From Pseudomonadota bacterium (GTDB lineage Bacteria > Pseudomonadota > Gammaproteobacteria > Burkholderiales > Thiobacillaceae): a stretch of 64,000 nt of DNA. Below, piece by piece: positions 41,001-46,679 of the stretch. How positions within the stretch are numbered: position 1 is the stretch's first letter; each line of letters begins with the position of its first letter. Made by a program: the position numbers and the translations under genes. Location of the stretch: NCBI GenBank assembly GCA_029558905.1, contig JAKQCX010000011.1, positions 100,570 to 164,569 of the forward strand. The letters are read 5' to 3'. The notes under the pieces are model-generated. The model saw only the letters and a list, made by a program, of their open reading frames with translations. It ran no database searches and had not been told where the DNA came from.

Positions 41001-41018
41001 AAAACAGGTTGTCTTTTT

Positions 41019-41037
41019 AATGAGAATGTGTATCATT
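41019..41037 (+). promoter_or_regulatory. Fur-box-like operator before the ferrosome-type cluster
   Basis: AATGAGAATGTGTATCATT lies in an AT-rich patch otherwise absent from this GC-rich region. The left half equals the AATGAGAAT half of a Fur box and the right half contains the inverted ATCATT. It is 191 bases before the GTG of the first cluster gene. Fur with Fe(II) would repress the cluster when iron is plentiful. Confidence 0.65.
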
Positions 41038-41227
41038 CGTTCACGTGACTGAAGTGATGAGCATGCTTCGTACTTGCGGATGGAGATATCCGCTCAAACC
41101 AACGACTGTCCCGCAGGCCAGCCCATGGGGATCGACCAGCAAGGACGTGTGAAATCCGCGAGTGGACATACAGATGCCGGGCAGCCTTACTTCGACCAAT
41201 CGGGAGTCGTTTCGTCAGGAGGAGGCC

Positions 41228-41581
41228 GTGAATGCTGACATGCAGCGGAAGGTTGCGGCCTTGCTGGACCTGCGCCGACACATCTCCATCGTGCACCATC
41301 TTCCTGGTCGCATCCGTCTGCGCCTGGGCCCGGCTCTCTGGAGCAGGATTGCCCAAGTGGGCCGCGGCCGCCTGCAGGCGCTGGCCGCTGAACTGGAGGC
41401 GGAGGGCATACGGGGAGTGCGCGTCAATGCCGCAGTGGCCTCGGTGGTGGTCGAGTACGACTCCGCGCAGGTCCCACCCGAGAATTGGGAGACCCTCGTG
41501 CAGGGCAACGCGCTGGAGGCGGGCGACATGTTGCGTCCGTGGCTGATGCGATACGGGCATTTGTTGCGTGACAACCCTTGA
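41228..41581 (+). CDS. HMA-like domain protein, ferrosome-type cluster gene
   Basis: The 117-residue product has a ferredoxin-like HMA fold in which the metal-binding CxxC is replaced. Its core is IVHHLPGRIRLRLG, followed by a helix (LQALAAELEAEGIRG) and the strand pair VRVNAAVASVVVEYD. The same HxxP-[GA]-R-[IL]-R-[LI] motif recurs in the cluster's ATPase and in the gene at 45718. The GTG at 41228 is chosen because AGGAGG lies five bases upstream; an ATG at 41162 would add a longer leader. It is the first gene after the Fur-like box and is followed 15 bases later by a small membrane-protein gene. Confidence 0.75.
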   Translation: MNADMQRKVAALLDLRRHISIVHHLPGRIRLRLGPALWSRIAQVGRGRLQALAAELEAEGIRGVRVNAAVASVVVEYDSAQVPPENWETLVQGNALEAGDMLRPWLMRYGHLLRDNP

Positions 41582-41596
41582 GAAATGGAGTCGGGA

Positions 41597-42154
41597 ATGA
41601 GTGAACAAGATATGTCCGGACAGGGCGGCCAAGACGTGCGCGGGATGAAGAGCGCAGGTCAGGCGGGATTGGCGCAGGATCAAGGCCAGGGTGGCCTGCA
41701 CCCGCCCCAGGGCGGCCAGGCAGGCGTGGGGCACGGGCAGGGGCTGCCACAATACCCTCCTCAGCAAGGCATGCCCTATTGGCCGGGCCATGGCTATGCC
41801 ATGCCCGGCATGCAGGGATACCAACCCGGCATGGGGCAGATGACCGGCCAGCATGTGGGGCAGCAAGCCGGCCAGGGCCATGGCATGACCCAGGCCATGC
41901 AGGAGATCGCCAACGGCGGCGGCCTGTCCAGCCTCACCAAACTGCTGGATTTCGACGACAAGGATTTCTGGAAGGGTGCCCTGGTGGGAGCGGCGGCGGT
42001 ACTGCTGCTGACCAACGAGAACGTCCAGCGTGCCCTGTTCCGGGGTGCGGTGAAGGGCCGGGACGCGGTGGAAGATGGGGTCGGCAAGGTCAGGGAGGGC
42101 GTGGACAAGGTGAAGGCGAAGGTGCGCGCCGGCAAGGAGAAGGGTGATGAGTGA
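41597..42154 (+). CDS. Gln/Gly/Met-rich small membrane protein of the ferrosome-type cluster
   Basis: The 185-residue product is in two parts. Residues 1-100 are low-complexity and rich in Gln, Gly, Pro and Met (for example QQGMPYWPGHGYAMPGMQG). Residues 115-140 form one glycine-rich membrane helix in KGALVGAAAVLLLTNENVQR, and the tail is a charged helix (EDGVGKVREGVDKVKAKV). The helix module is shared with the protein at 42826. The ATG at 41597 has GGAG six bases upstream. No known family was recognised; the layout recalls magnetosome-type membrane proteins, without sequence proof. Its stop overlaps the next gene's start. Confidence 0.8.
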   Translation: MSEQDMSGQGGQDVRGMKSAGQAGLAQDQGQGGLHPPQGGQAGVGHGQGLPQYPPQQGMPYWPGHGYAMPGMQGYQPGMGQMTGQHVGQQAGQGHGMTQAMQEIANGGGLSSLTKLLDFDDKDFWKGALVGAAAVLLLTNENVQRALFRGAVKGRDAVEDGVGKVREGVDKVKAKVRAGKEKGDE

Positions 42155-42533
42155 ACATGGCCTGGCGCCTCACATCCACGATGGCACCTGCCTGCCCGCC
42201 GTCTGCCTGCCCACGGTCGCGCCTTACATTGAACCCCGCACCTGCGATGCCCTGATCCACATGGCCGTGGTGGGTGCCGTGGTGGGAGGGTCCGCCGCTG
42301 CCGCGCACAACGCTCTGCGCATGAAGCGGGACGAGATCGAACTGGGCGAGGCCATGCTCTACACCGGACGCGCTGCCATCGCCAGCGCTGCGGCCACGGC
42401 CGTGGCGGGCGCCACGGCCAATGCGGTGGTGGGCGAAGGCATGCTGCGCCTGTCCGTCATGTTCGGTATCGGCGCGGCCATGCTCTATGGCCTCAATCGC
42501 TGGACCGGGAACAAAGGGGCGGGCGATGCATGA
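42147..42533 (+). CDS. Small glycine/alanine-rich membrane protein of the ferrosome-type cluster
   Basis: The 128-residue product has two or three membrane segments with many Gly and Ala residues: ALIHMAVVGAVVGGSAAAAH, then a polar loop with RMKRDEIELGEAML, then AAIASAAATAVAGATANAVV and LSVMFGIGAAMLYG. The N-terminus carries Cys and His residues (HIHDGTCLPAVCLP) that could bind metal. The glycine-zipper-like helices suit tight membrane packing. It overlaps the genes on both sides by eight bases. No family recognised. Confidence 0.78.
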   Translation: MSEHGLAPHIHDGTCLPAVCLPTVAPYIEPRTCDALIHMAVVGAVVGGSAAAAHNALRMKRDEIELGEAMLYTGRAAIASAAATAVAGATANAVVGEGMLRLSVMFGIGAAMLYGLNRWTGNKGAGDA

Positions 42534-42813
42534 CGCCGGCTATCAACATCATCACGGCGTGAAGAAGAACATCGTGGAGGGAGTTGGCGGCGTGCTCATC
42601 GGCGCAGCGGTGGTGCTGTTGCTGGCGCGGCTTTTCAGGAGCGGCAAGGCGGAGACTGGGGCAGAGCCGCCGCCCACGCCGGTAAACGCGCGGCGTGCCG
42701 CATCATCCAAGCAACGCGCAAGTGTGGCGTCCACCACCGGCAAGCGGCCCGGACGGGCCCGGGCACAGACCGTGCGCGAGCCCACCGCCGACGCCAAACC
42801 CAACGAATCCTGA
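42526..42813 (+). CDS. Small single-pass membrane protein of the ferrosome-type cluster
   Basis: The 95-residue product starts MHDAGYQHHHGVKKN, a His-rich end, and has one membrane helix, VGGVLIGAAVVLLLARLF, similar to the helix of its neighbours. The rest is a basic, Ser/Thr/Arg-rich tail (RAASSKQRASVASTTGKRPG). It overlaps the previous gene by eight bases. The His-rich N-terminus may bind metal; no family recognised. Confidence 0.75.
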   Translation: MHDAGYQHHHGVKKNIVEGVGGVLIGAAVVLLLARLFRSGKAETGAEPPPTPVNARRAASSKQRASVASTTGKRPGRARAQTVREPTADAKPNES

Positions 42814-42825
42814 TTGGAGCCAGCA

Positions 42826-43206
42826 ATGAACCATCCCATGTATACCCACCCCCAGTACCCTCAGCAAGGCACGGGCTCCATGAGCCAGGCCCAGGACCCC
42901 GCCCTGGCCCAGGGCATGGGGCAAGCGATGCAGGGCCAGTACCCCCAGCCCATGAGCTATGCCGGCTATCCCCGGTACGCACCCCAGTTCCAGCCAGCGC
43001 AAAACAGCAGCCTGTTCAACGATCGTTTTTTCAAGGGCCTGCTGATCGGCGCGGCTGCCGCCTATCTGCTCACCAACGAGAGTGTCCAGCGCACCGCCAT
43101 CAAGGGCGCGGTCAAGGCCTGGAGCCTGCTGCAGGGCGGCGTCGAGGAACTGAAGGAACGTTTCCATGACGCCGAGGCGGAGATCCGCGCGGAGGCCGAT
43201 GCGTGA
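42826..43206 (+). CDS. Small membrane protein paralogous to the 41597 gene product
   Basis: The 126-residue product has a Gln/Pro/Met/Tyr-rich N-terminus (MYTHPQYPQQGTGSMSQ and onward), then FFKGLLIGAAAAYLLTNE followed by SVQR and a charged helical tail (LKERFHDAEAEIRAEADA). The module KG-[LA]-L-[IV]-GAAA-x(3)-LLTNE-[SN]-VQR is shared with the protein at 41597, so the two arose by duplication. TTGGAG lies six bases before the ATG. Its stop overlaps the next gene's GTG. Confidence 0.8.
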   Translation: MNHPMYTHPQYPQQGTGSMSQAQDPALAQGMGQAMQGQYPQPMSYAGYPRYAPQFQPAQNSSLFNDRFFKGLLIGAAAAYLLTNESVQRTAIKGAVKAWSLLQGGVEELKERFHDAEAEIRAEADA

Positions 43207-43439
43207 TCAGCCCGGGATACCCCGTGAATAGGTGGGCTTCGACGCCCCCCTCAGGCGAAGGGGGCCAATTGGAGGGTGGCGCCGGCCAGCACCCGGACAC
43301 GGAACGGCAGACGCGGGCCAAGCGGGATCGCTGGCTGGTCGGACTGCTGGCCGGAGCCGCACTGATGTATCTCGCGGGCAAGCTGATGGGGCTCGGGCGG
43401 TCGCATGTCCCCAATGCTCTGCGCCCACGGAAGCACTGA
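43203..43439 (+). CDS. Small single-pass membrane protein before the P1B ATPase
   Basis: The 78-residue product starts at a GTG that overlaps the previous stop codon. The first half is polar; a helix DRWLVGLLAGAALMYLAGKL follows and the end is basic. The helix again has the GLLAGAA pattern seen in the cluster's other small proteins. The ATPase gene starts three bases after its stop. No family recognised. Confidence 0.7.
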   Translation: MISPGYPVNRWASTPPSGEGGQLEGGAGQHPDTERQTRAKRDRWLVGLLAGAALMYLAGKLMGLGRSHVPNALRPRKH

Positions 43440-43442
43440 GCG

Positions 43443-45572
43443 ATGAACACCCCCGTCATCCTGCACGAGACACCGGCCCGGCTGCGCCTGCGCCTGCCCG
43501 CGCTGGCCGACGGAACGTACGATCCGGCCTGGCTGGAGACCTGGCTGGAAGGACAGTCGGGCGTCAAGGAGGTGCGCATCAACCGCAAGGCCGCCAGCGT
43601 GGTGGTGATCTTCGACCCGGCCCGAGCCGACCGCGCGGCGGTGCTGGCGCGTCTGGCCGCCTTCCAGCCCTGTCAGAAGCCGGCCTCCGGTGCGAGGCCT
43701 ACGGTGGTGGGCGAGATCGCGCCCATGGTCACCAGCGCCGCGACCCTTGCCGCCCTGCCCTTTCTGTCACCTGCCGCGCGCCGATTGCTGACCTTCGCCA
43801 ACGTGGCGCCCATTCTCGTCCACGGTACAGAAACCCTGGCGCGCAAGGGCATCAAGATGGAAGTCTTGGACGCCTTGGCGGTCGGCCTGGCCACCTTCAA
43901 GGGTGAAGCCTACACCGCCAATATCACCGCATTCCTCCTGGCCATGGGGGAATTCCTGGAGCAACAGACACAACGCAAGTCGGACCGGTTGCTGCGTCGT
44001 CTGCTCAGCCCAGAACCCGCCCCCGCCTGGGTGGAAAGGCACGGGGAACTGATCCAGGTACCCGGCGACACGGTGCAGGTGGGGGAAATCGTGGTCGTGG
44101 GCATGGGTGAGACGGTACCCGTGGATGGCCGGGTGGTAGAAGGCACGGCCCTGGTCAATCAGGCTGCCGTCACCGGCGAGGATCTGCCGGTACGGCGCGA
44201 GCAGCGCCACCGGGTGGTGGCCGGCAGCGTGGTGGAAGAGGGGCGTATCCGCGTGGAGGCCCAGCGGGTGGGCTCCGAAACCACCACGGCACGGGTGGCC
44301 AGCTTCATCCAGTCTTCCCTGGAGAACCGCTCCGACACCCAACGCATGGCCGAGGAGCTGGCCGACAAGCGGGTCTGGCTCACCCTGATCACCGGCGGCC
44401 TGGTCTACGCCCTGACCCGGAACCTGACCCGCCTGGAGTCCGTCTTTCTAGTGGACTACTCCTGTGCGCTCAAGCTGGGCACGCCCATGGCCTTCAAGGC
44501 GGGCATGTACCGTGCCGCCACGCATGGCGTGCTGATGCGCGGCGGCCACGCCATCGAACACCTGGCCGAAGTGGACACAGTGGTGTTCGACAAGACGGGC
44601 ACGCTGACACACAGCGAACTGATCGTCACCGATGTGGTGGTGCTGGGTGGCAAGCCATTGTCGGAAGACGCCCTGCTGGCCCTGGTGGCCTCGGTGGAGG
44701 AGCACGCCAGCCACCCCCTGGCGCAGGCCATCGTCGAGGCGGCCAAGGAACGGGACCTGAAGCACATCACCCACGGCGAGGTGGACTACCTGGTGGCGCA
44801 CGGCCTGTCCACGGACGTGGACGGCAAGCGCATCATCATTGGCAGCCGCCACTTCCTGGAGGAGCATCACGACATCGCCTTTGATCGGCATGAAGCGGTC
44901 ATCGACCGGCTCCAGGACGAGGGCAAGACGCTGCTCTACGTGGGCGCCGCCGCCCAGGGCAGGCGGAAGGGTGGTCCCATAGGCGTGGTGGCCCTAAGGG
45001 ATACCCTGCGCGCCGACGCGGCTCATGCCCTGAAGCGCCTGCGCGCCCTGGGCATCAAGGAAATGGTCATGATCACCGGCGACAAGCGTGCCAAGGCCGA
45101 GGCCCTGGCGGCCGAGCTGGGCCTGGACGCGGTCCACGCCGAGGTGGCGCCCGAGGAGAAGGCCGAGATCATCAAGTCCTTCCAGGTCCAGGGCCGCAAG
45201 GTGGCCTTCGTGGGGGACGGCATCAACGACGGCCCGGCCCTGTCGGTGGCTGAGGTGGGCATCGCCATGCCCAGGGGAGCGGACATCGCGCGGGCCACGG
45301 CGGACATCGTGCTCATGGACGACCGCCTCACCGCCGTGGCGGATGCCCGGGAGATCGCCGCCCGCACCATGAGACTGATCCGCAGCAACTTCAACGTCGC
45401 GGTCGGTGTCAATACCGCCCTGCTCACCGGAGCCGTACTGGGCTGGCTCTCCCCCGTGATGAGCGCCGTGCTGCACAATGGCACCACCATTGGCGTACTG
45501 TTGCGCGCCCTGTCCGGGCCCGGCCTATCTCCCCGAAGCGACCCGGTCGTGTCCGGGCACGTCCTGCACTGA
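43443..45572 (+). CDS. fezB: P1B-type metal-transporting ATPase of the ferrosome type (FezB-like)
   Basis: The 709-residue product is a P1B ATPase. Residues 1-80 form an HMA-like domain with HETPARLRLRL and no CxxC. The actuator loop reads VTGEDLP in place of the usual TGES. The membrane metal-binding helix carries YSCALKLGTPM (Cys341), the SCA motif assigned to the P1B-6 group. The phosphorylation site DKTGTLT has Asp383, followed by ASHPLAQAI, MITGDKRAKAE and GDGINDGPALSVAE. FezB proteins of ferrosome loci in Desulfovibrio magneticus, Rhodopseudomonas palustris and Clostridioides difficile are P1B-6 ATPases. It is the largest gene of the cluster and lies next to HMA-like and small membrane genes. 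The metal is inferred to be iron, not shown. Confidence 0.85.
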   Translation: MNTPVILHETPARLRLRLPALADGTYDPAWLETWLEGQSGVKEVRINRKAASVVVIFDPARADRAAVLARLAAFQPCQKPASGARPTVVGEIAPMVTSAATLAALPFLSPAARRLLTFANVAPILVHGTETLARKGIKMEVLDALAVGLATFKGEAYTANITAFLLAMGEFLEQQTQRKSDRLLRRLLSPEPAPAWVERHGELIQVPGDTVQVGEIVVVGMGETVPVDGRVVEGTALVNQAAVTGEDLPVRREQRHRVVAGSVVEEGRIRVEAQRVGSETTTARVASFIQSSLENRSDTQRMAEELADKRVWLTLITGGLVYALTRNLTRLESVFLVDYSCALKLGTPMAFKAGMYRAATHGVLMRGGHAIEHLAEVDTVVFDKTGTLTHSELIVTDVVVLGGKPLSEDALLALVASVEEHASHPLAQAIVEAAKERDLKHITHGEVDYLVAHGLSTDVDGKRIIIGSRHFLEEHHDIAFDRHEAVIDRLQDEGKTLLYVGAAAQGRRKGGPIGVVALRDTLRADAAHALKRLRALGIKEMVMITGDKRAKAEALAAELGLDAVHAEVAPEEKAEIIKSFQVQGRKVAFVGDGINDGPALSVAEVGIAMPRGADIARATADIVLMDDRLTAVADAREIAARTMRLIRSNFNVAVGVNTALLTGAVLGWLSPVMSAVLHNGTTIGVLLRALSGPGLSPRSDPVVSGHVLH

Positions 45573-45604
45573 GTCCGATCCGAACGCGCGCATTTTTGTC
45601 AAAA

Positions 45605-45627
45605 GATGAGAATCAGAACCATTGATC
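45605..45627 (+). promoter_or_regulatory. Possible Fur operator before the HMA-feoAABC genes
   Basis: GATGAGAATCAGAACCATTGATC matches the first half (ATGAGAATC) of a Fur box well and the second half poorly. It lies in an AT-rich stretch, 90 bases upstream of the HMA-like gene at 45718 and would allow iron control of the feo genes. The gap between the ATPase gene and this gene, 145 bases, fits an internal promoter. Confidence 0.5.
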
Positions 45628-45717
45628 TCCATGGCCGCGCCTGTGTCGCCCACGACAGTTCAACCTCCAGGGTCCGTCCCCACCCAGTAACGACTGCTTA
45701 TCGAGAGGATTAACACC

Positions 45718-46080
45718 ATGACCGCCATCCAATACATGCACCACACACCCGGTCGCCTGCGCATCAAGGGCGCACATTTCAAGTGTCGCGGAGAGCAGGT
45801 GTGCAAGGCCGTGGCCGCCCTCCAAGCCATGCAGGGCGTGGAACGGGTACAACTGAACAGCCATGCCGGCAGTCTCATCGTGCACTACGATCCCAAGCTG
45901 CACACCCAAGATGACCTGCTGGATACCCTGGGAAAGGCCGGATGCCTGCACCTCGACTCCAGCACCCGCCACGCGCGTGTCGTGGCACCCAGGGACGGTG
46001 TGACCCAGCAGTTCGGCAGGGCCCTCGTGGGCGCGCTGGCCCAGCGCACGGCCACCAAGCTCATCGGTGCCCTGCTCTGA
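45718..46080 (+). CDS. HMA-like domain protein upstream of feoA
   Basis: The 120-residue product has an HMA-like fold beginning MHHTPGRLRIKG, with the same HxxPGRLR motif as in the ATPase N-terminus and the protein at 41228, then VERVQLNSHAGSLIVHYD. CxxC is absent; single Cys residues occur in HFKCRGEQVC and GKAGCLHL. The last 35 residues end in LIGALL and may be amphipathic. GAGAGGA precedes the ATG. It is followed after 10 bases by feoA, so it links the ferrosome-type cluster with Fe(II) uptake. Confidence 0.78.
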   Translation: MTAIQYMHHTPGRLRIKGAHFKCRGEQVCKAVAALQAMQGVERVQLNSHAGSLIVHYDPKLHTQDDLLDTLGKAGCLHLDSSTRHARVVAPRDGVTQQFGRALVGALAQRTATKLIGALL

Positions 46081-46090
46081 GGTCTGTCCC

Positions 46091-46327
46091 ATGCCAGCCA
46101 CTTTCCCCCTGAGCATGGCCGTCGAAGGCAGTCGTGTGCGCGTCGTAGCCCTGCGGGGAGGCATCAGACTGGACAAGCGCATGACCGAGATGGGCCTCAA
46201 CCTGGGCAGCGAACTCTCCGTGCGCCACCGTCAAGGAGGGGGCATGGTGGTATCCCGTGGGGAGACACGTTTTGCCCTGGGGGGTGGCATGGCACACAAG
46301 ATCATGGTGGAACGGGTGGAGCCATGA
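46091..46327 (+). CDS. feoA: FeoA-domain protein (first copy)
   Basis: FeoA is a small SH3-like cytoplasmic partner of the FeoB Fe(II) transporter. The 78-residue product has the FeoA pattern VVALRGGIRLDKRMTEMGL followed by NLGSELSVRHRQGGGM, and ends with GMAHKIMVERVEP. It starts 10 bases after the HMA-like gene. The second FeoA lies 124 bases downstream; two FeoA proteins beside one FeoB are seen in a number of proteobacteria. Confidence 0.88.
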   Translation: MPATFPLSMAVEGSRVRVVALRGGIRLDKRMTEMGLNLGSELSVRHRQGGGMVVSRGETRFALGGGMAHKIMVERVEP

Positions 46328-46451: not shown

Positions 46452-46679
46452 ATGACCCTCAAGGACCTGAAGGTAGGCGACCGCGCCAAGGTAACCGGAT
46501 TCATGGAAGGGGGCGGGACCTACCGCCGCAAATTGCTGTCCATGGGCCTGACCCCGGGTGCGGAACTGGCCGTGACCCGGCTGGCCCCCATGGGTGATCC
46601 GGTGGAGATCCGCGTGCGTGGATTCGCCCTGTCCGTACGCCGTGCCGAAGCGGCTACCCTGGCCGTGGAGGTACTGTAA
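46452..46679 (+). CDS. feoA: FeoA-domain protein (second copy)
   Basis: The 75-residue product has the FeoA layout: TLKDLKVGDRAKVTGFM, YRRKLLSMGLTPGAELAVTR and MGDPVEIRVRGFALSVRRAE, which is closer to classic FeoA than the first copy. GGAG lies seven bases before the ATG. Its stop overlaps the feoB start (TAATG), so this copy is translationally coupled to feoB. Confidence 0.93.
   Translation: MTLKDLKVGDRAKVTGFMEGGGTYRRKLLSMGLTPGAELAVTRLAPMGDPVEIRVRGFALSVRRAEAATLAVEVL

Follow-up and report, generated by a model that had tools for sequence, protein, structure and literature searches.

A putative ferrosome operon in a Thiobacillaceae bacterium and an apparent relative of the magnetosome protein MamC among its products

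Ferrosomes are membrane-bounded, iron-storing organelles of bacteria in which the iron is amorphous, and Shewanella putrefaciens is one of the organisms that form them. The fez clusters of Desulfovibrio magneticus, Rhodopseudomonas palustris, Shewanella putrefaciens and Clostridioides difficile were reportedly the subject of studies by Grant in 2022 and Pi in 2023. Here we describe a gene cluster of this type in a stretch of 64,000 nucleotides (hereafter the window) from a bacterium of the family Thiobacillaceae, and one of the small membrane proteins it encodes, p3, which appears to be a distant relative of the magnetosome protein MamC (Mms13). The literature describes ferrosomes for R. palustris, with six fez genes, for D. 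magneticus and for C. difficile, in which FezA and FezB are Fur-repressed (PMC12016538, PMC12748827, PMC10979944, PMC12574912), and FezC as a heme-binding ferrosome protein (PMC10979944). As to MamC, it is stated that no conserved domain is listed for it and that it is strongly conserved in magnetotactic Alphaproteobacteria (PMC3905215), and that Fe2+ is bound by its loop, which acts upon magnetite by means of an Asp and a Glu (PMC6206293).

A fez-type gene cluster joined to feo genes

Like the described fez clusters, the window combines a FezB-type P1B ATPase, HMA proteins devoid of a CxxC motif, small membrane proteins and a Fur-like box (Table 1). The elements that a sequence-only reading had picked out are all present: the Fur-like box, the GTG-started HMA-like gene, a run of five small genes with overlapping or nearly touching ends (41585-43439), the P1B ATPase with its SCA motif and CxxC-less N-terminal HMA-like domain, and a second HMA-like gene. 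Four named Shewanella loci (L099, L108, L125 and L126; the experimental strains themselves were not in the comparison) show the same succession of an HMA gene, two p2/p5-type genes, p3 and fezB. Unlike the known clusters, the window adds p4, p6, a downstream HMA gene, feoA, feoA and feoB in one run. The arrangement is not a matter of chance, given that Parasulfuritortus cantonensis (L019) has counterparts of all 11 genes, feoA, feoA and feoB included, in an identical order, with identities of 81% for the ATPase, 77% for the feoB-like gene, 58% for hmaN and 55% for hmaC. On the basis of the genes and their order, the grouping of the ATPase, the conservation of the fez locus, the Fur-like box and the homology of p3 and MamC, all observed in this analysis, positions 41021-46080 together with the feo genes probably represent an iron-regulated ferrosome (fez) operon that is joined to a ferrous-iron importer.

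The host genome is a 2.6 Mb draft of 35 contigs that is 90% complete. The sequence-only reading had assigned the DNA to a sulfur-oxidising gammaproteobacterium; the family is also that of Parasulfuritortus and in the NCBI scheme belongs to the Betaproteobacteria. For comparison, 84,980 genomes were scanned, which yielded 477 FezB-related stretches, the best 80 of which were named. A set of 93 fez loci was recruited by FezB likeness (79 of them from these best 80), and the set thus leans towards the relatives of the window. Kept out were L047 (same contig as L019), L046 (a second Arcobacter plasmid) and L041, whose ATPase is 34% identical and has another motif, and which served as an outgroup. 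Since L034 and L121 are one Vibrio locus, the 93 loci amount to 92 distinct ones, and the 83 with p3 to 82. Several of the 93 loci end early.

The ATPase has the SCA-type motif in its fourth transmembrane segment (TM4) and an HMA-like N-terminus without CxxC. In a tree, 26 FezB-type proteins (that of the window and 25 others, Shewanella included) fall on one side of a branch with support 83/98, apart from four pumps of the host genome (two copper-type, one zinc/cadmium-type and one KdpB) and the more distant ATPase of genome G846, used as an outgroup; one further ATPase frame of the host (L006/L007) was left out. The motif (Y/F)(S/A/T)C-x-x-K is found in TM4 of all 26 FezB rows of the tree and of all seven FezB proteins encountered via the MamC search described below, while CxxC occurs in two of 93 FezB N-termini. 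Motif and tree together lead us to reject a copper, zinc or Kdp pump. Pfam recognizes the E1-E2 ATPase and hydrolase domains, the N-terminal HMA_2 match of 20.6 bits being under the cut-off of 30. Among the NCBIfam models only the generic P-type, heavy-metal and cadmium-family ones are matched above cut-off, and the copper-subfamily, CopA and ZntA models are not.

These generic matches, and the fact that most P1B ATPases are efflux pumps, would fit an ATPase in the cell membrane that expels iron or another metal for detoxification, with the small proteins as regulators or chaperones and no organelle involved; import by feo beside such an exporter could form a homeostatic pair. We consider export unlikely, as conserved small membrane proteins beside the pump, some with low-complexity tails, are untypical of efflux pumps, as a relative of MamC is present, whose family is otherwise known from an iron organelle, and as fez operons are reported, in the articles cited above, to make ferrosomes.

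Regulation by Fur may be mediated by the box upstream of hmaN. Three Fur-like sites were found in the window where 0.32 were expected; for the promoter-like pair at 41009-41036 the numbers are one and 0.5. The occurrence of Fur-like boxes was assessed in 89 of the 93 loci, leaving out one duplicate and three with too little upstream sequence. In 24 of these, the region from -350 to +60 around the start of the first operon gene holds a box with at most three mismatches, whereas about 3.3 would be expected from the remaining sequence of these loci (about 0.038 per region); two Shewanella loci have a perfect box. The identification as a ferrosome-type locus, also made from the sequence alone, is backed by the ATPase tree, by a layout common to Shewanella, Vibrio and Chromatiaceae loci and by the enrichment of Fur-like boxes. 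The GTG start of hmaN is directly preceded by AGGAGG. The five small genes are tightly packed, neighbours overlapping by 11, 8 and 4 bases or standing 3 to 12 bases apart; hmaC begins 145 bases past fezB and the first feoA gene 11 bases past the end of hmaC. Because the gene ends overlap or nearly touch and feoA follows hmaC so closely, hmaN through feoB likely form one transcription unit, perhaps broken before hmaC. The GC (guanine plus cytosine) content of the operon shows no break with the flanks.

Relationship of p3 to MamC

The p3 family was seeded solely with the genes of the window and of P. cantonensis and iterated in the open reading frames (ORFs) of the fez loci, which yielded 96 ORFs, 93 of them on the FezB strand and within 3 kb upstream, and 79 members after removal of redundancy. 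In the three annotated records examined, p3 is designated hypothetical. When the members were scanned against 18,950 NCBIfam models, 68 of the 79 matched MamC at E <= 0.01 (best 2.3e-12), with all scores shown below the cut-off of 100 bits; no other model matches more than one member and no Pfam family more than two. The p3 of the window scores 37.3-37.6 bits against the MamC model (NF038051), which does not reach the curated cut-off of 100 bits. The control alignments, comprising 44 of 50 non-redundant p5, 39 of 57 p2 and all 27 p4 members, gave a MamC match for none of the p5, one of the p2 and none of the p4 proteins.

Profile comparison of p3 with 25 distinct MamC proteins from the order of a Magnetovibrio metagenome-assembled genome (MAG) resulted in 98.4% (E 6.6e-15, 89 columns), against 0.7% for p5, 1.8% for p2 and 2.3% for p4; with a small MamC-type set the values were 98.6% (E 8.6e-16) and 0.2-0.4% for p5, p2 and p4. 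The two proteins are of similar length and can be aligned over the whole hairpin, the alignment continuing across the charged loop, where it shares the positions G, N/Q, G, A, K/R, A and Y. Reciprocally, a hidden Markov model (HMM) made from fez p3 only detected MamC in 30 of 30 MamC loci (37.5-63.5 bits; in four the gene is off its usual place in the locus), whereas 3000 shuffled MamC cores reached at most 12.2 bits. Both being small Ala/Gly-rich membrane hairpins, the likeness might have arisen by convergence, and the low identity (~26-29%), scores that, where shown, stay under the 100 bits demanded by NCBIfam (37 for the p3 of the window, up to 47 elsewhere) and matches of the MamC model in eight of 14 control genomes at the loose E of 1 would agree with that. 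Yet the Ala/Gly-containing p2, p4 and p5 fail in the same comparisons, at E 0.001 the model matches none of the 14 control genomes and four of 369 genomes of the window's class (that of the window, two with MamC above cut-off and one with a lone gene), and the reciprocal searches agree, which makes convergence very improbable. In view of the p2, p4 and p5 controls and the shuffles, we also reject an artefact of composition.

The genomic surroundings of the weaker matches are informative as well. A search of 317 genomes from the order of the Magnetovibrio MAG, which is not that of the window, returned 40 with a MamC match, 31 of them above cut-off. All nine sub-cut-off genomes were inspected and eight have one near-full-length weak match (23.9-40.4 bits). 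In seven of these the gene precedes a FezB gene, adjoins a p5-type gene and has HMA genes around it; the eighth (L166:6595-7592, genome G1071) appears to be a fez remnant with p3 and an HMA gene followed by unrelated genes, and no FezB was found nearby. No fez genes were seen in the stretch examined around the match of the ninth genome (G873, gene in pieces) or around a second, partial copy in G971. Of nine fez genomes or records that were searched whole, six have MamC-profile matches, all eight places being inside fez loci (compared by hand); the other three gave no match at that threshold, but their fez loci do contain p3 according to the p3 HMM.

Three lone MamC-like genes (L020:6432-6809, L023:6886-7191 and L022:6522-6821) have neither fez nor evident magnetosome genes adjoining, and two of them are in genomes that also have MamC above cut-off. 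An AlphaFold model of p3 has three helices (33-61, 67-95 and 100-123) and a confidence (pLDDT, predicted local distance difference test) of 70.5, too weak to argue from. The four matches of a PDB sequence search with p3, none better than E 0.07, were designed proteins and a glycosyltransferase. The literature covered, as far as its text was accessible, states no link between p3 and MamC or between MamC and ferrosomes; the founding ferrosome paper (Grant 2022) and Pi 2023 are outside that coverage and may mention one.

The p3 and MamC proteins form distinct groups. In an unrooted tree of 105 proteins (122-125 usable columns; three long-branch p3 rows left out), one branch with support 99/96 separates 76 fez p3 proteins from 29 others, namely MamC and three lone relatives. 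MamM is present above cut-off in five of five MamC genomes tested and in none of 17 fez genomes, including those of the window and of the Magnetovibrio MAG (L101); one of the 17 (G869) has a match below cut-off. In the host genome (G000), given its 90% completeness, no MamM match was obtained at E 1e-40, MamM being the only magnetosome gene searched for. That p3 is a borrowed magnetosome gene, with the organism or the donors being magnetotactic, could be proposed since at least one fez carrier, this MAG, is labelled a relative of a magnetotactic genus. Considering the MamM distribution, the single branch between p3 and MamC and the fact that MamC-profile matches, in the six fez genomes or records where they occur, are confined to fez loci, such borrowing is hardly credible. 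As a clear magnetosome context for MamC we used L175, where MamC adjoins an Mms6-like gene (53 bits, cut-off 200) and has MamM (454 bits) at a distance of ~1 kb. Genomes G138 and G286 both carry MamM above cut-off and were set aside as proof of such a context: by eye, MamC is near isc-type genes (G138 ORFs) and no magnetosome cluster is visible.

Unlike MamC, p3 resides in fez operons and the Glu of the mineral-binding pair is mostly replaced by A, T or D. With the loop columns matched to the published numbering by inference from the D-x-G-x-E-T spacing, the first acid site is D/E in 24 of 25 MamC proteins and the second is E in all 25. Among 79 p3 proteins the first is D/E in 39, and the second is most often A (28), followed by T (20) and D (16). 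The basic residue between the two sites is K in 25 of 25 MamC and K/R in 63 of 79 p3 proteins. As the acids by which MamC binds mineral are mostly changed, p3 would act, if at all, on a different mineral or via different residues.

Gene content and distribution of fez loci

The claim of the sequence-only reading that the accessory proteins differ from described ones mostly finds no support, unlike its assignment of the locus to the ferrosome type. Upstream of fezB, 91 of the 93 loci have at least one p2/p5-type gene and 77 have more than one; separate small HMA genes are present in 79 (counted without the N-terminus of FezB itself), p3 in 83, p4 in 32, mainly those of Chromatiaceae, and feoB in 18. 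Only p6 is restricted (window, L019, L048, L049 and L056). Thus the accessory proteins are mostly not new, and the point of interest is the link of the p3 family to MamC, which the sequence-only reading had missed. The loci of Shewanella, Vibrio, Photobacterium, Ferrimonas and Kluyvera consist of six genes: HMA (divergent), HMA, p2-type, p3, p5-type and fezB. The p2 and p5 families are homologous (profile comparison 99.1%). Pfam YtxH (PF12732) is matched weakly by 11 of 44 p5 members (best E 1.4e-4), and by the p5 of the window with 12.6 bits (cut-off 37.5). An arginine motif of the GRIRLR kind is present in 99 of 140 separate HMA ORFs, a CxxC near the start in two. The genes feoA, feoA and feoB follow downstream on the same strand in the window, L019, L048, L049 and L025.

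Among the ten loci without p3, L036, L072 and L074 end near a contig end, and L051 (~2 kb upstream) has no recognised partner genes; the other six are considered below. Twelve loci, mostly of Chromatiaceae, have p3 twice on the FezB strand, in most cases on either side of p4 (L050, L052, L060, L063, L066, L071, L073, L077, L079, L080, L081 and L088), and L101 has a second copy on the opposite strand. A DUF2202/rubrerythrin-like (ferritin-like) gene occurs in eight of the 93 loci (e.g. L045:3279-3962 and L085:1123-1668); two ferritin-like genes were checked with Pfam, one being above the DUF2202 cut-off. HMA-containing proteins stand beside FezB as in the setting of FezC. A two-span His-containing segment, on HMA or stand-alone proteins, is found in 13 of the 93 loci (e.g. 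L090:10583-10996 and L042:3018-3497) and may correspond to the published FezC cytochrome; one of five such proteins tested matches DUF4405, weakly.

Table 1. Features of the fez-type cluster and the adjoining feo genes (positions in the window)
Feature	Position	Strand	Remarks
Fur-like box TGAGAATGTGTATCA	41021..41035	+	3 mismatches to TGATAATNATTATCA; overlaps promoter-like pair 41009-41036
hmaN, HMA_2-like, 117 residues	41228..41581	+	GTG start; GRIRLRL arginine motif, no CxxC; HMA_2 E 9.3e-6, 26.1 bits (Pfam cut-off 30)
p2, 189 residues	41585..42154	+	G/Q/M-rich N-terminal stretch and one short hydrophobic segment (KDFWKGALVGAAAVLLLTNENVQ)
p3, apparent MamC-family membrane protein, 129 residues	42144..42533	+	NCBIfam MamC E 2.5e-9, 37 bits, under cut-off 100
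p4, small single-span protein, 95 residues (HHGVKKN...GGVLIGAAVVLLL)	42526..42813	+	family in 32/93 loci, mostly Chromatiaceae
p5, YtxH-like small membrane protein, 126 residues	42826..43206	+	p2/p5-type gene in 91/93 loci
p6, small single-span protein, 78 residues	43203..43439	+	family in 5/93 loci
fezB, P1B-type ATPase, 709 residues	43443..45572	+	DYSCALK in TM4, SHP, DKTGTLT; N-terminal HMA_2-like domain without CxxC
hmaC, second HMA_2-like protein, 120 residues	45718..46080	+	no CxxC; HMA_2 E 5.4e-7, 30.1 bits, at Pfam cut-off
feoA-like gene 1	46091..46327	+	Pfam FeoA E 3.4e-15
feoA-like gene 2	46452..46679	+	Pfam FeoA E 3.6e-21
feoB-like ferrous iron importer, 773 residues	46679..49000	+	identified by eye from the GNPNCGKTTLFN motif

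The distribution of the ATPase was surveyed with a 103-residue probe around TM4. FezB-type relatives are present in three of 117 genomes of the family, that of the window included (86% identity for G033 and 44% for G015, which is of the same genus), and in nine of 398 genomes sampled from the phylum, again including the own genome (one, G846, with another TM4 motif). The FezB of the window groups with those of P. cantonensis, Thiothrix and Chromatiaceae, and since G015 has another type, that of Azospirillum/Arcobacter, the fez locus has probably moved between lineages. The operon of G015 (L025:4207-6453; FezB 45% identical) is of a distant type and precedes the same feoA, feoA and feoB genes, two different fez lineages thus being found at a similar place. 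Fez operons also occur on plasmids or megaplasmids, namely NZ_CP089968.1 (L043, Cereibacter, typed as conjugative), CP129951.1 (L045, Arcobacter) and NZ_CP045339.1 (L044, Vibrio), so the system may travel.

Weighing of the evidence and proposed roles

Several points weigh against an iron-regulated ferrosome operon with a MamC relative. The box of the window is three mismatches off the consensus, and 65 of the 89 loci have none within three mismatches. The support for a single FezB branch is moderate (bootstrap 83), and the generic cadmium-family model TIGR01512 is above cut-off for FezB (382 bits); this match is unspecific, because the host's own copper pumps exceed that cut-off too. The two-span His segment, putatively FezC, was not found in the window or the Shewanella loci by an HMM seeded from two loci. 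With respect to p3, 11 of 79 members lack a MamC match, the p3 of the window has Y and A at the two acid sites by which MamC binds magnetite, and four largely complete loci (L037-L040) lack p3, which is also undetected in L025 (a diverged fusion) and L059, so it is not required by every fez operon.

Organelle formation, the direction of transport and the location and function of the individual small proteins, among them p3, we infer as follows. Upon iron shortage Fur would leave the box at 41021 and the operon would be made. FeoAAB would then bring Fe2+ into the cytoplasm, from where the FezB-type ATPase would pump it into a compartment enclosed by a membrane. The HMA proteins, arginine-rich and devoid of CxxC, may together with the N-terminus of FezB link the components or serve as docking sites for iron and phosphate, and the paralogous p2 and p5, the former with a low-complexity tail, may shape or coat the vesicle. 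As a MamC-family hairpin in the vesicle membrane, p3 would have its loop directed towards the mineral, like MamC in magnetosomes, and would modulate the filling or size of an amorphous store and not crystal growth.

The relationship of p3 and MamC suggests that the two iron organelles share a part. More tentatively, and with somewhat more doubt than confidence, we propose that this part is a core membrane component of two organelles regarded as separate inventions, the MamC family then having a ferrosome branch (p3) and a magnetosome branch, with MamC either recruited from an iron-store organelle or sharing one descent with p3. The lumen-facing p3 would set the size or nucleation of the amorphous granule, and the gain of Asp and Glu in the loop would have made the protein magnetite-binding.

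The analysis places putative ferrosome operons in sulfur oxidisers (Thiobacillaceae, Thiothrix and many Chromatiaceae), a few of them coupled to feoA, feoA and feoB. The likeness of p3 to MamC provides a function to test for a ferrosome gene that lacks annotation, and, as p3 is conserved in most of the proteobacterial fez operons examined, a testable evolutionary link between two bacterial iron organelles.

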